Source of the DNA: a virus
Direction: 5' to 3' (one strand)
DNA: 34,318 nt
Virus record (IMG/VR): IMGVR_UViG_3300043466_000283
Span: 1 to 34,318 of that record
Position numbers and translations under genes: made by a program. Positions 162 to 27,159 of this stretch are shown here, piece by piece (the first letter of the stretch is position 1; every line of letters begins with the position of its first letter). The notes below the pieces were generated by a model. The model ran no database searches. It was not told the DNA's origin and saw only the letters and a list, made by a program, of their open reading frames with translations.

Positions 162-606
162 CAACAAGCGTTAAAATATCAGTCACCAAGTCTGAAGGCA
201 ATGTGCCATAACCAGCTTGATATTTTATATCGTAATACCCTTGAGAATATAACCAAACTTTTCCACCTATCACCTCATAATCTTCATTAACAGTAAGTGT
301 ATCACTCATATTGATGCCAGTTTTCATCACCACCTCATCCACGCAATTTAATGGAGAGTAAGGTAAATCAACCATCCAAACATTTGGCACACTCCCAGTA
401 AGTTGAATATTTGCTCTTATAAGCTTATTTGTCAAAGATCTACCAGTTAGCAATTCAAGATGCTTTCTAGCACTTGAAATTAGACTATCAATTAATGAGT
501 CATCCGTATTGTAATCAATACGCATCCAATTCTTAGCATCCGTTCTACTTACTGGCTCAACCACTGCATCAGCTAAAATGGTTATTCCGTTTATATATAT
601 TGCCAT
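46..606 (-). CDS. Head-tail connector (HK97 gp6 / phiE125 gp8-like)
   Basis: A 186-residue protein that probably forms the ring joining the portal to the tail. The N-terminal half has the family's helical pattern: residues about 19-57 include TDAKNWMRIDYNTDDSLI, then a helix ending in RKHLELLTGRSL. The C-terminal half has the Y-x-AGYG motif near residue 130 and a closing helix with AWSYENRG. Length is typical of phage gp6/gp8 adaptors. The start shares one base with the stop of the glycosyltransferase gene (TAATG), and the stop shares one base with the GTG of the gp10-like gene, so it is translated as part of the structural operon. Connectors usually follow the capsid gene directly; here two glycosyltransferase genes intervene. 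Assignment is by family resemblance read by eye. Confidence 0.82.
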   Translation of the reverse strand: MAIYINGITILADAVVEPVSRTDAKNWMRIDYNTDDSLIDSLISSARKHLELLTGRSLTNKLIRANIQLTGSVPNVWMVDLPYSPLNCVDEVVMKTGINMSDTLTVNEDYEVIGGKVWLYSQGYYDIKYQAGYGTLPSDLVTDILTLVAWSYENRGKKMNADPQGVITQYPYWDGLNYHQYKTVVI

Positions 607-1627
607 TATTTGTAATATTTATCAACCATTTCTCTGAGCCAAATTTCGAACTCATCAAGTGCTTTTCTTGGGTCGTGGTCTTTTGCTCTTTTTCTCGCTC
701 TCCTTGAGGCTTCGGTATATGCCTTTTTCTCATCCAACTTTGTAATTGCTTCAACCCAGCTTTTAACATCATCCCTATCTTTTATAAATATTCCAGCATA
801 GCCGCAATTCTCAACCAACCCATCAGCATTACTGCAAATAACTGGGATTCCATTACACATCGCCTCAGTCGCAGTCCTTCCCCAGCTTTCATATTCACTT
901 GGCATCAACAAGATTCTTGTCATACCATATATAGGCTTAATATCTGGCGTATTTGGCAGTATTTTAAGATTTGGGATGTTTGGTGTCACTTGCTCATCAT
1001 AACTCCCCAAAACGCCTAAAAATCGTTTATTTGGTAATGCCCTGGCTATGCTTTCAAATATCTTACCACCTTTATTATCGTTTAAGTTTATAAGTGTGAT
1101 AAATTCATTAACCTCTGGGTCTTTTCCTAAGTCGTAATTTCTAAAATCAACTGGGGGTGGTATTGTAAAGTTATCCCATTTGTAGTTTAATTTTCGCTTT
1201 ATCCATAGTGAATTATAAACAATGTGTTGTGGAAAATGTGCATTTTCAATCTCTGGGTACTTATACGAATTATGTATTAAATGAAAAACTGGCTTTTTAT
1301 ACAATGCAGCCGCTCCAATTGTCCATTGTGTATAATCTAAATGAGTAAATACACAATGAGACCACCTCATCAAATTCTCAATAACATTTGCATTTGGTGG
1401 AAATACATCAACACCATCAAAAGTGTAAGTATTATTTATTTTGTAATGATTAGCTTGATGTAGCAATACTCTAACACTATGACCTTTAGCCATTAAGTCT
1501 TTAGCCATATTATGTGCCATCCATTCTGCTCCGCATAAAACCTCTTGAGGGTGCATCAATTAAGACACACCCCCAAGAGGCAATTGTGTTGAGGAGGGTA
1601 TAGATGTATTGAAAATAATATATTCAT
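606..1627 (-). CDS. GT4-family glycosyltransferase, interrupted by a 47-nt hairpin element (possible translational bypass)
   Basis: A GT-B fold glycosyltransferase, expected to move a sugar from a nucleotide-sugar donor. The continuous ORF from 1559/1556 begins abruptly at residues leading to CGAEWMAHNMAKDLMAKGHS, without the first Rossmann strand. That strand is encoded just upstream in another frame: ATG at 1627 gives MNILFSIHLYPPQHNC, then reads into a hairpin and stops at TGA 1558-1556. Skipping the 47 nt at 1579-1533 joins the pieces as ...QHNC-GAEWM..., a 324-residue protein of normal GT4 length. The donor-site region is intact: the stretch ESWGRTATEAMCNGIPVICS carries the E-x7-E motif. 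The gene lies between a GT25-like gene and the head-tail connector, in a cargo position. Without bypass, reinitiation at 1556 (TGATG) would give a protein lacking beta-1. Confidence 0.75.
1533..1580 (-). other. Hairpin gap element inside the GT4 gene: candidate bypassing element
   Basis: Reading the minus strand, TGC (1582-1580) is followed by 47 nt ending in a second TGC (1535-1533). Within it, CCTCTTGGGGGTG (1580-1568) pairs with CACCCTCAAGAGG (1553-1541), 12 of 13 Watson-Crick plus one G-U, with a 14-nt loop. The upstream frame ends at TGA in the loop, which overlaps ATG 1556 as TGATG. An AGAGG sequence lies 5 nt before the second TGC. Matched codons, a hairpin starting at the take-off codon, a purine-rich site before landing and a gap near 50 nt all resemble the T4 gene 60 hop. 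Four T residues follow the stem, so weak terminator activity is also possible. Confidence 0.6.
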
Positions 1628-1645
1628 ACTTCTATGTATTTTAAG

Positions 1646-2203
1646 TTAAATTAATTTATTTGCGCTGCCATTAAATATATCTCTATAATCAGCATAAAAA
1701 TCCCATAAAGCTGATTGATGTGGTTTTTGCCAAGCTATCATTGGAGCCACTATATAACTGTTACCTCTTGGATGAATATTTTCTTTCAGCCAATCATCAA
1801 ACATAACTGATGTGTCTGTATATCCCTCACAAATAGCTTTTGGATTATTAAATATAACCGCGTGAGTTGTCCAAGCCCCAAAAGTCCTATATAGATTTTT
1901 ACTATATTTTTCAATAGGTGCTACAAGGTTTGCACCTAAATAACAAATCTCCCAATCAACTGGTAACTGCGAAAGTGCAGCAATTAAATGCTCATTCTCT
2001 CTTATCTCAACATCATCCTCAAAAAAATACAAAACATCATCAGCATCTTTACAAATATTGCTTATAGAGATGTTGTAAGATGTCTTTGGATTGCTATGCT
2101 TTTCAGCATAAACAACCTTTGGCAATATTCCCAATTTTTCAATCTCGCTTATAGCAGCATTAAGTGTTGGTGAGCCTTCAGTTGTAAGTAGTCTAACTTT
2201 CAT
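1646..2203 (-). CDS. Glycosyltransferase, GT25/GT-A-like (small)
   Basis: A 185-residue protein resembling GT25-type glycosyltransferases with a GT-A-like fold. The start MKVRLLTTEGSP is chosen at 2203; the longer reading frame upstream runs through the capsid terminator and the capsid gene end and is not credible. Visible motifs are FFEDDVEI around residues 59-66 (the acidic metal/nucleotide-binding type), WTTHAVIFN near the middle, and FDDWL about 20 residues later. The ATG sits directly after the U-tract of the capsid terminator, with no room for a promoter or a normal ribosome site, so expression must rely on read-through. It is 18 bases upstream of the GT4 gene. The two probably modify virion or host surface glycans; the acceptor cannot be told from sequence. 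Confidence 0.6.
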   Translation of the reverse strand: MKVRLLTTEGSPTLNAAISEIEKLGILPKVVYAEKHSNPKTSYNISISNICKDADDVLYFFEDDVEIRENEHLIAALSQLPVDWEICYLGANLVAPIEKYSKNLYRTFGAWTTHAVIFNNPKAICEGYTDTSVMFDDWLKENIHPRGNSYIVAPMIAWQKPHQSALWDFYADYRDIFNGSANKLI

Positions 2204-9625: not shown

Positions 9626-9942
9626 GCGAGCCATCAAAGCCATCAAAAATCCCAGTTCTTCCCTATATATATGTATATATATATATTCTTATTATTATTA
9701 TAATTTAAGAAATTTGATGGTTTTATTGGCATACCCCTCCTAACTCCTTGATAATCAATAAAGAGCGATAGCCAATAAACTTTTTTGGTTGATGGCTTTT
9801 GATGGTCGTGTTGGCTATTTTTTGCCATTTTCTTAGAACATATTATCTTTTTCAATAATAGGTTCATACCCACTTGCCATCAACTTGCCATCATTTGCCA
9901 TCAAAAAGCCATCACTTGCCATCAACTTTTTATTTTGATGGC
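9626..9942. other. Candidate replication origin: GATGGC repeats plus AT-rich tract
   Basis: The word GATGGC or its complement occurs exactly nine times: GCCATC begins at 9630, 9639, 9876, 9887, 9897, 9908 and 9918, and GATGGC at 9791 and 9937. Variants GATGGT lie at 9716 and 9801. Chance would give well under one. The tract 9663-9715 is almost pure A/T, including a long alternating TA run, suitable as an unwinding element. The region spans the 3' end of the primase-helicase gene and the gap before the DnaA-like gene. Together these are the parts of an iteron origin. No RNA or protein data are visible here. Confidence 0.55.
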
Positions 9943-12442
9943 TATCCAAATTGTGGATAAAAATAAATCTTCCGTGCTTCACACTCCTCTTTTGAGACAC
10001 CTCAAGTTGGTTAATATCGCAGTAAGTTTTGACCTTTCTGCTAAAATATTTGTCCAACATTTTAACCTTAAATGCCTTGATGCAGTACCTCAAAAGATGA
10101 GAATTATAGACGTTTAACCCTCCAGCTTCCCACTCAAAACACCCAATTAAACTATCCTTATCGTGTTGTAATTGGTCGTAAGGTGTCATCATTTCCTCAA
10201 ATTCAAGGTGGTTTTTAGCCATTTTATAGGTGCTAATTCCTTGCTCAAGTACCTCAATGATGAACTCTGGGACTTGATCTTGGAGCAATCTCTTGGCTTT
10301 GTTATCGTTCATTTTAGCATTCTCATACTCGATTACACCATCACGCAAATACACCTGGATGCACTCAATAGCAAAGTTTATCGCGCTCATTTTCTCATAA
10401 TAATCCCAATCATCGCTAAAAAAGTCTTGCCCATTAAACGCATCTTTTAACCGATAAACGCTACTAAACACCTTCTTGATGGGTACAACTATAAACCTAT
10501 CTTTATCCGAATCGCTCTCTAAAGATGGCAAAAAGTTAGTGGTGATAAATACTTTAGGGGATTTGTTAAATGGTATGGTGTAGGACTTTTTACCCTTATT
10601 CTCAATAAGAAAGTCATCCGTTATATAATTATAAAATTGCTGGATAGGTAGTCCCTTTTGGGGGTCGTTTAAATAGAATACTTGCGTCCAAGGTGAGATT
10701 CGCTGCATCTTAAATTGCGAGTCGGTCTTATAATTCCTTCCATCTTGCTCAACTGTCTGCCTAATCCATTTGATGAATTGACCAAGTAAACCCTTACCGC
10801 TTCGCCCTCTTGCCTCCTCTTGATCATCTACATCCTCTATTATCATCACCGCTTTTGCAAAACTCTTGCGCTTAAAGTTGTGCAAGATATAACCAAATGC
10901 GCTCATTAAAAACCGCTTATGTCCATCATCAATAGAGAGCATATTGATAAACTGGACAAAACTACCAGCATCATTATTAGGCTTATAATCAAACGGCTTG
11001 ATGTCGCGGACAAATACATAACTATCCAACTCATTATACTTAATCAATTCAACCTCATCACTACTAACCTTTAACACACCATTGTTAAATAGCAAATAAC
11101 TGCAATCATTCCCATCTCTTAATATGTTGCCATCAAACTGGGGTAATATTGTGAGGTAAGACATTAACCTTGGTAGGAATGCAATCAAAAGCCTTTGCGC
11201 ATCAGCCTCTAAATATTCGACCATCACAAAGTCTACAAATGCGCGTTGGATGTCGGACTCATCAATGTCATAAATCACATTTTCAACCACTCTGATTAAC
11301 CGCGATGGTGCATCATCATCGATGGACATTTTCATCATCATAAACCCACTCTCAATTGCCCAAAGCTGGATGCCTCTAATCTCAAGCCTCCACGTCAAAC
11401 CATTCCTCCCAGCCACCGATGAGACCATCGGCACACGCTCTGGCAAGTCAATCCCCATTTGCCCACATAGGTCCACCACAACCCGTGACGTTTCGTCCCA
11501 GTTACGGTCATTTAGATAAAACAACACTTGGTAAGGTGATAGCCACGATGCTAGTCCTTCGCTATTATTGATTGATGGCAGCTTAACCCCAACACTATCA
11601 GTATAAACACTTAATCGCTTCGAGTCATAATAATAAGCCGCGCTCCTAACAGTTCGCTCATCTTCACTCTTACCAGGTCTATACAACTCGATAAATTTCC
11701 CATAATCCCTACCATTACCAAGCCGCTTATTACTCAAACTCCAACCTAATGTCTCAAGGTAATTAGGTATAAACATCTCATCAACCTTTGCATCAAATAT
11801 GTCCATAACTTGCTTATACTTAATAGGTGGTTGGGGGAATTTCGCAATCGAGCGTTGCTTCACTCCTCCACTTGATGTGATGGCATTGCCCTTATAGGTA
11901 TTAAACTGATAGCCGCAATCTATTAGCTGCATCATCTCATCAAAGTCCAACGTCTCTAATTCAAGCAAACTCCTTTGAATGAATGAATACTTAGGCGTGG
12001 GAGCGCAATAAGTGATACCATTAAAATTATCACCTCTTAACCCTATCACTTCCCTACCCTCATCATTATAAGCTATGCCGTGAATATCACATTTATCATT
12101 GCAAAGAAAATAAACGTGGTAGCCATTAGATCTCGTGCGCTCAATTACCAGCTTACTATAAATAATGGGATCAATTAAAGCCTTCCAATTATCAAACACA
12201 TTGCGACCGATAGCATTCTTCTCATCAAAGTCAAGACACTTTAAATTTGGGTTGGCTTTGCTCATTAGCACCGCTATGCCATTGCCAAACCCTTTATTTA
12301 TCCACTCTTTATGCTCATCATCACTCAACCCATTGTCAAACTTGGTGTTGTATTCATAGATGTGATAAATGCGCCCATCTGTGTATTTAATAGGTAGGAC
12401 CTTCACCCCAGCATAGTCTAACTCTCGTATAAGTTCAAGCAT
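9833..12442 (-). CDS. Primase-helicase (Prim-Pol plus SF3 helicase)
   Basis: An 869-residue replicative protein that should prime and unwind phage DNA. The N-terminal Prim-Pol (AEP-type) domain shows CLDFDEK with D71 and D73, RSNGYHVYFLC with H109, and IGLRGDNFNGI. A linker domain follows (about 200-330). The SF3 helicase has Walker A GRSGKGLL at 546-553, a Walker B-like VFYLND at 588-593 and sensor KVFITTNF at 630-637. The C-terminal 30 residues are a low-complexity repeat (LMASDGF, LMANDGK) that looks more like a by-product of DNA repeats than a fold. There is no phage polymerase, so host polymerase must do the elongation. The gene follows the VRR-NUC gene by 2 bp. Confidence 0.9.
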   Translation of the reverse strand: MLELIRELDYAGVKVLPIKYTDGRIYHIYEYNTKFDNGLSDDEHKEWINKGFGNGIAVLMSKANPNLKCLDFDEKNAIGRNVFDNWKALIDPIIYSKLVIERTRSNGYHVYFLCNDKCDIHGIAYNDEGREVIGLRGDNFNGITYCAPTPKYSFIQRSLLELETLDFDEMMQLIDCGYQFNTYKGNAITSSGGVKQRSIAKFPQPPIKYKQVMDIFDAKVDEMFIPNYLETLGWSLSNKRLGNGRDYGKFIELYRPGKSEDERTVRSAAYYYDSKRLSVYTDSVGVKLPSINNSEGLASWLSPYQVLFYLNDRNWDETSRVVVDLCGQMGIDLPERVPMVSSVAGRNGLTWRLEIRGIQLWAIESGFMMMKMSIDDDAPSRLIRVVENVIYDIDESDIQRAFVDFVMVEYLEADAQRLLIAFLPRLMSYLTILPQFDGNILRDGNDCSYLLFNNGVLKVSSDEVELIKYNELDSYVFVRDIKPFDYKPNNDAGSFVQFINMLSIDDGHKRFLMSAFGYILHNFKRKSFAKAVMIIEDVDDQEEARGRSGKGLLGQFIKWIRQTVEQDGRNYKTDSQFKMQRISPWTQVFYLNDPQKGLPIQQFYNYITDDFLIENKGKKSYTIPFNKSPKVFITTNFLPSLESDSDKDRFIVVPIKKVFSSVYRLKDAFNGQDFFSDDWDYYEKMSAINFAIECIQVYLRDGVIEYENAKMNDNKAKRLLQDQVPEFIIEVLEQGISTYKMAKNHLEFEEMMTPYDQLQHDKDSLIGCFEWEAGGLNVYNSHLLRYCIKAFKVKMLDKYFSRKVKTYCDINQLEVSQKRSVKHGRFIFIHNLDSHQNKKLMASDGFLMANDGKLMASGYEPIIEKDNMF
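9869..9925 (-). repeat. 21-bp tandem repeat, 2.7 copies, inside the primase-helicase 3' end
   Basis: Units start at 9925, 9904 and 9883 (the last is partial, 15 bp). Each full unit carries two GATGGC words about 10.5 bp apart and is translated as LMASDGF, LMANDGK and LMASG. Word spacing of 11, 10, 11 and 10 bp puts all copies on the same face of the helix. Confidence 0.85.
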
Positions 12443-26934: not shown

Positions 26935-27159
26935 TTATGTTCTATCAACCTTGTCTTTTAACTCCAATTTAATATCTTGCAAAGCCTCAAAAATCTTACC
27001 CAACTTCTCACCAATCTCATCCTCCTTTTTCTCAAGGGTGCGGACACGAAGATCAAGCTCTCTAAGCTTAATCTTCATATCCGTAAACATTTTTGACAAT
27101 GCCATTGCAAACGCGATGGTTTGTATAATAATTGTCACAATCACCCCTTGCTCCATCAT
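26935..27159 (-). CDS. Holin-accessory-like membrane coiled-coil protein, 74 aa
   Basis: One N-terminal membrane helix (MEQGVIVTIIIQTIAFAMAL) is followed by a 50-residue charged coiled coil (KIKLRELDLRVRTLEKKEDE...). This is the reverse order of XhlA, where the helix is C-terminal, but the parts are the same. It lies 3 bp after a 52-residue two-helix protein; the pair may make the membrane lesion in lysis. Start at either of the two adjacent Met codons. Confidence 0.6.
   Translation of the reverse strand: MMEQGVIVTIIIQTIAFAMALSKMFTDMKIKLRELDLRVRTLEKKEDEIGEKLGKIFEALQDIKLELKDKVDRT

Follow-up and report, generated by a model that had tools for sequence, protein, structure and literature searches.

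The glycosyltransferase (GT4) gene of the phage sequence analysed here, a viral record 34,318 bases long (the window), is split between two frames by an insert of 47 nt, which is very probably a programmed translational bypass element that has spread together with a homing endonuclease. The hop itself, the site of cleavage and the protection of the occupied allele are the parts of this explanation that we infer from the patterns set out below. The window reads mainly on the minus strand, and it carries capsid, portal and terminase genes with matches to phage families. The nearest named relatives of the capsid are those of Cellulophaga phage phi10:1 and Flavobacterium phage 11b (~31% identity), and this similarity makes a Bacteroidota (flavobacterial) host likely. 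Between capsid and GT4 lies a gene (1646-2203, minus strand) with no Pfam or PHROG match that is exchanged in relatives for FkbM-like or methyltransferase-like genes (families assigned by eye only); the position is a variable cargo spot. Elsewhere, 21-nt tandem repeats (CACTTGCCATCAACTTGCCAT) at 9871-9928 lie in the 3' part of an 869-aa open reading frame (9833-12442).

The first coding piece of the GT4 gene (1580-1627, minus strand) starts at ATG 1627 and encodes MNILFSIHLYPPQHNC, the same N terminus as in intact homologues, in 16 codons up to a TGC at 1582-1580, the proposed take-off codon, beyond which its frame continues to a TGA at 1558-1556. The second piece (606-1535, minus strand; CGAEWM..., 309 aa, stop at 606) matches Pfam Glycos_transf_1 and opens on the landing TGC (1533-1535, minus strand). 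The two-frame split recorded in the preliminary description, with its ATG, take-off TGC and resumption at CGAEWM, is thus present as described. The insert runs from the take-off TGC to just before the landing TGC (1536-1582, minus strand; 44 nt between the codons), and removal of this TGC-to-TGC gap, as had been proposed, yields exactly the sequence type of 90 distinct relatives. It contains a hairpin (1541-1580, minus strand) and a linker, TTTTA (1536-1540, minus strand), preceded by the purine-rich AAGAGG. Two smaller features noted earlier, AGAGG 5 nt ahead of the landing TGC and TGATG at 1558-1554, are likewise in place.

Two protein searches of viral contigs together with pattern scans gave a set of 101 distinct GT4 sequences, 90 of which have no insert and read in one frame through MN.L.SIHLYPP.HNCGAE or close variants; the comparison with homologues called for earlier therefore finds phages lacking exactly the 47-nt segment. 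The corresponding codon in these empty relatives is TGC in 46, TGT in 42 and TCA in two. The pattern scans located the element in 15 other contigs, always at the same GT4 codon, so that the carriers comprise these contigs and the window, all of them metagenomic, in ten distinct versions. An assembly artefact is ruled out by the 16 records in ten versions. The insert measures 47 nt in the window, L085/L083, L082/L005/L086 and L088, 48 nt in L084, L087 and L210, 49 nt in L114/L099, and 50 nt in L109/L110 and L205/L207. These lengths cover all three frame phases, and the mechanism that reunites the two pieces must therefore be independent of frame. Take-off and landing codons are matched (TGC/TGC) in 10/10 versions and the downstream GT4 frame is open in every carrier, while the first-piece frame meets a stop at +24 (TGA) or +42 (TAA). 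Take-off one codon earlier was rejected, as codon 15 (AAT or TTA) matches no landing codon in most versions. Scans of viral contigs with exact patterns for the core, left arm and right arm recovered nothing but GT4 sites, apart from chance hits that had no right arm. The hairpin, which the preliminary description had proposed to look for at other sites, recurs in related phages, but always at this one GT4 codon: no other gene with the element was found among the viral contigs scanned, and GTDB genomes do not contain its exact core. GT4 relatives among phage records and GTDB genomes are at best only 33-35% identical.

The hairpin had been described as one of 13 bp; its presence is borne out, whereas its length was understated, since it forms 17 consecutive pairs (G-U included) around a 6-nt loop. 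It starts inside the take-off codon, at the third base, spans 40 nt and has a predicted energy of -30.7 kcal/mol (z -6.6), with 0/200 shuffles as good. By stem length it ranks second in the window. The first is a 20-bp hairpin with a 3-nt loop at 27041-27083 (minus strand), within a coiled-coil-like 75-aa open reading frame (27162-26935); as this frame is uninterrupted there, it was rejected as a second insert and is a coding palindrome. Over the ten versions of the GT4 element all 170 of 170 pair cells hold standard pairs, and three tip pairs show double compensatory changes (U-G to G-U, U-A to C-G and C-G to A-U), all three from one version, L205/L207; none of 500 shuffles reaches the same level of pairing and double changes. 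The lower 13 pairs are nearly invariant, and among the versions linked to an endonuclease gene the hairpin differs at 0-3 of 40 positions while the endonuclease genes are only 69-85% identical. The retained pairs, the double changes and this near-invariance beside diverged genes argue that both structure and sequence of the hairpin are constrained. A search of Rfam with the element gave no match to a known RNA family. The linker varies from 5 to 8 nt (TTTTA in the window; elsewhere TCGTA, TTTTAC, TTTAAC, TAAAAAC and TAAAAAAC), and AAGAGG or AGGAGG stands 5-8 nt ahead of the landing codon, the same bases also forming part of the stem.

Directly upstream of GT4, five of the ten versions carry a gene for a NUMOD4-HNH homing endonuclease of about 183-186 aa, with Pfam PF07463 and PF13392 in all three copies tested. 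It is present in 6/11 carrier rows and in 0/73 empty rows for which enough upstream sequence was available (Fisher 1e-6). The versions without it are those of the window, L082, L088, L110 and L205. In the window, however, a 24-nt remnant immediately before the ATG (1628-1651, minus strand; ATTTAACTTAAAATAcATAGAAGT) differs at one position from the 3' end of the endonuclease gene in L085, and the gene was therefore probably once present in this lineage and then lost. On the GT4 tree the carriers are scattered: the 11 carrier rows require 11 changes, ten of them forced by well-supported branches, a count equal to that of shuffled labels. When a carrier is set against its nearest empty phage, most pairs differ over ~9 nt ahead of the insert and over the 6-8 nt that follow it, beyond which they are again nearly identical, as in L114 and L126, which agree at 100% beyond the short downstream flank out to 400 nt. 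L205 and L141 resemble each other on either side of the insert, and L210 and L082 are exceptions downstream, with no differences in the first 9 nt. Short flank differences of this kind are the pattern that repair copying would leave. The earlier guess at a mobile element is thus strengthened by the patchy distribution, the short conversion tracts and the linked endonuclease gene. At L114:1979-1990 the GT4 start is apparently a GTG overlapping the endonuclease stop (GTGTGA), other versions having ATG. A second NUMOD4-HNH family occurs in several relatives, after the major capsid gene (L085:4744-5250, upstream in that contig; L118-L122), and its copies in L120 and L122 look decayed because of in-frame stops near their start; this family was rejected as a partner of the element, which is not found beside it.

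The insert might instead be a selfish scar that disrupts GT4, leaving a truncated GT4 made from an internal start or no active GT4. We regard this as unlikely, although all versions do have an in-frame ATG 4-5 codons past the landing site (Met21) and the element may have been acquired recently in most carriers, in which case the low dN/dS would partly date from before its arrival. GT4 contains no additional stop or frameshift in any carrier, and dN/dS after the insert is 0.05-0.16 against the nearest relative, within the range of empty relatives (0.12 for the second piece of the window against its nearest empty relative). The upstream piece offers a further argument. In L084 and L087 the endonuclease gene (dS 0.56) lies directly before GT4 codons 1-15 and an identical 48-nt element directly after them (hairpin differences 0/40). 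Between the two, codons 2-15 differ by seven synonymous changes and one nonsynonymous change, and 0/20,000 random placements gave so few nonsynonymous changes. This excess suggests that, if co-inherited with both neighbours, the N-terminal piece has stayed under selection as protein even though the element separates it from the rest; recombination could also have brought the neighbours together separately. A scar would moreover not be expected to be conserved so far beyond the adjacent endonuclease gene. Finally, in a structural model of an intact homologue (pLDDT 87), whose fold resembles that of GT4 enzymes such as MshA and BshA, residues 2-7 form beta strand 1 and helix 1 starts at residue 17, so that a product begun at Met21 would be predicted to lack strand 1.

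Very unlikely is a second possibility, in which translation stops at the loop TGA and restarts at the overlapping ATG, so that GT4 would begin with an altered N terminus (MHPQEVL-CGAEWM...). In its favour, the TGATG overlap is a classical arrangement for coupling, and in L110 and the 47-nt versions the loop ATG shares the frame of GT4. Five of the ten versions (L084, L087, L210, L114 and L205) nevertheless have no in-frame start at the hairpin, and restart cannot explain these; in L205 neither the loop ATG nor the loop stop remains, and the stop now follows the hairpin. The ATG also lies within the stem of a stable hairpin, and the product, like that from Met21, would on the model be without strand 1.

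Removal of the segment, either from RNA as a minimal intron with its cut at the hairpin or from the DNA of part of the population, fits frame independence as well as bypassing does, and a long hairpin could serve as an RNase III substrate. We nonetheless consider this highly improbable. The element lacks any Rfam match, contigs of many samples were assembled with the insert in place, the self-splicing introns known to us are all larger than 44-47 nt, and we know of no ligation of phage mRNA after an RNase III cut. Among simpler readings, a terminator is rejected as no U-run is kept among the linkers, stop readthrough could serve the 48-nt versions only, and a simple +1/-1 frameshift could neither serve the 48-nt versions nor pass the in-frame stops in the others. 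The alternatives that the preliminary description itself had named (restart, weak terminator, broken gene) accordingly fit less well than the bypassing it favoured, given the lack of an in-frame start at the hairpin in 5/10 versions, the absence of a conserved U-run and the dN/dS of 0.05-0.16, while exact empty homologues and a recurring hairpin lend support to the interpretation as a bypass.

Under bypassing, the ribosome would translate MNILFSIHLYPPQHNC up to the TGC of codon 16, where the 17-bp hairpin would stand at the edge of the decoding site, its first pair involving the third position of that codon. The peptidyl-tRNA(Cys) would then release, the ribosome would cross 44-47 nt, and re-pairing on the matched TGC 5-8 nt past the hairpin would be followed by decoding of GGA or GGT (Gly17) and synthesis of a full-length GT4. 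The NUMOD4-HNH endonuclease, for its part, probably cuts empty GT4 alleles around codons 13-18, and repair would copy either the endonuclease gene with the element or the element alone with a few flanking bases. The insert would destroy the target and render the allele uncleavable, while bypassing would make the insert harmless and leave GT4 functional. Retention of the element without the endonuclease gene would be expected if GT4 still works and the element guards against co-infecting phages.

To our knowledge, T4 gene 60 has long been the only well-established case of bypassing in bacteria and phages, and in the open-access literature we found no report of it in phages such as these. If our reading is true, the GT4 insert represents a second, unrelated bypass, and comparison of its ten natural versions with the dozens of exactly empty alleles would show which minimal signals hopping needs. 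Such a case would also point to bypassing as a recurrent cost of carrying a homing endonuclease, and the absence of a T4-like peptide signal, adjacent stop and 5' stem would simplify the mechanism.

T4 gene 60 contains a 50-nt insert with matched GGA codons, a take-off stem-loop, an adjacent stop, a nascent peptide signal, a 5' stem-loop and a Shine-Dalgarno-like element (PMC3014915, PMC5009743, PMC11194080), and its bypass forms a mobile cassette with the HNH gene mobA, according to the account of Bonocora et al. (2011, PNAS) given in PMC4592705. The GT4 insert shares with it a non-coding gap of ~50 nt (here 47-50 nt) that is absent from relatives, matched take-off and landing codons (TGC here, GGA in T4), a stem-loop at take-off, here a single 17-bp hairpin of differing geometry, and an adjoining HNH gene (NUMOD4-HNH here, mobA in T4). 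The purine-rich element before the landing site may be a counterpart of the Shine-Dalgarno-like GAG that stands ~6 nt before landing in T4. Since flavobacterial ribosomes largely ignore Shine-Dalgarno sequences (PMC9976891), however, AAGAGG/AGGAGG may not act as in T4 and may matter only as stem. In contrast to T4, no stop directly follows take-off, the next codon being CTC, and the nascent peptide has 16 residues rather than 46 with a KKYK signal; a predicted fold of 131 nt shows no local stem between ATG and take-off that would correspond to the 5' stem-loop. The phage group and the gene also differ, and there are many natural versions rather than one, with lengths spanning all frame phases.

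The byp elements of Magnusiomyces capitatus mitochondria (Lang et al., 2014; Nosek et al., 2015, as cited in PMC5009743 and PMC4592705), of which PMC5009743 gives 81 instances, provide a second comparison. They too are short inserts thought to be mobile, and they are bypassed in translation, as is proposed for the GT4 insert. Their length need not preserve frame. They occur many per genome, in different genes and on mitochondrial ribosomes, whereas the GT4 element is confined to one site and tied to a homing endonuclease gene. A 29-nt hop reported for an adhesin of Prevotella loescheii (cited in PMC5009743), which was not followed up, likewise concerns the Bacteroidota but affects a cellular gene with no mobile element described. 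In the tape-measure gene of phage Corndog, where bypass is one of two possibilities (PMC4351075), an HNH insertion beside a phage gene similarly calls for an unusual start or bypass, but no hairpin element or series of versions has been described. It is probable that Bacteroidota phages harbour an independently evolved and actively mobile bypass system, with a self-contained hairpin that dispenses with the nascent-peptide and stop signals of T4 and a gap of variable length (47-50 nt), and that this system serves a homing endonuclease cassette as its immunity mark. We conclude that the GT4 insert probably works like T4 gene 60 and yet constitutes a separate, independent variant, unrelated to it in sequence and parts.
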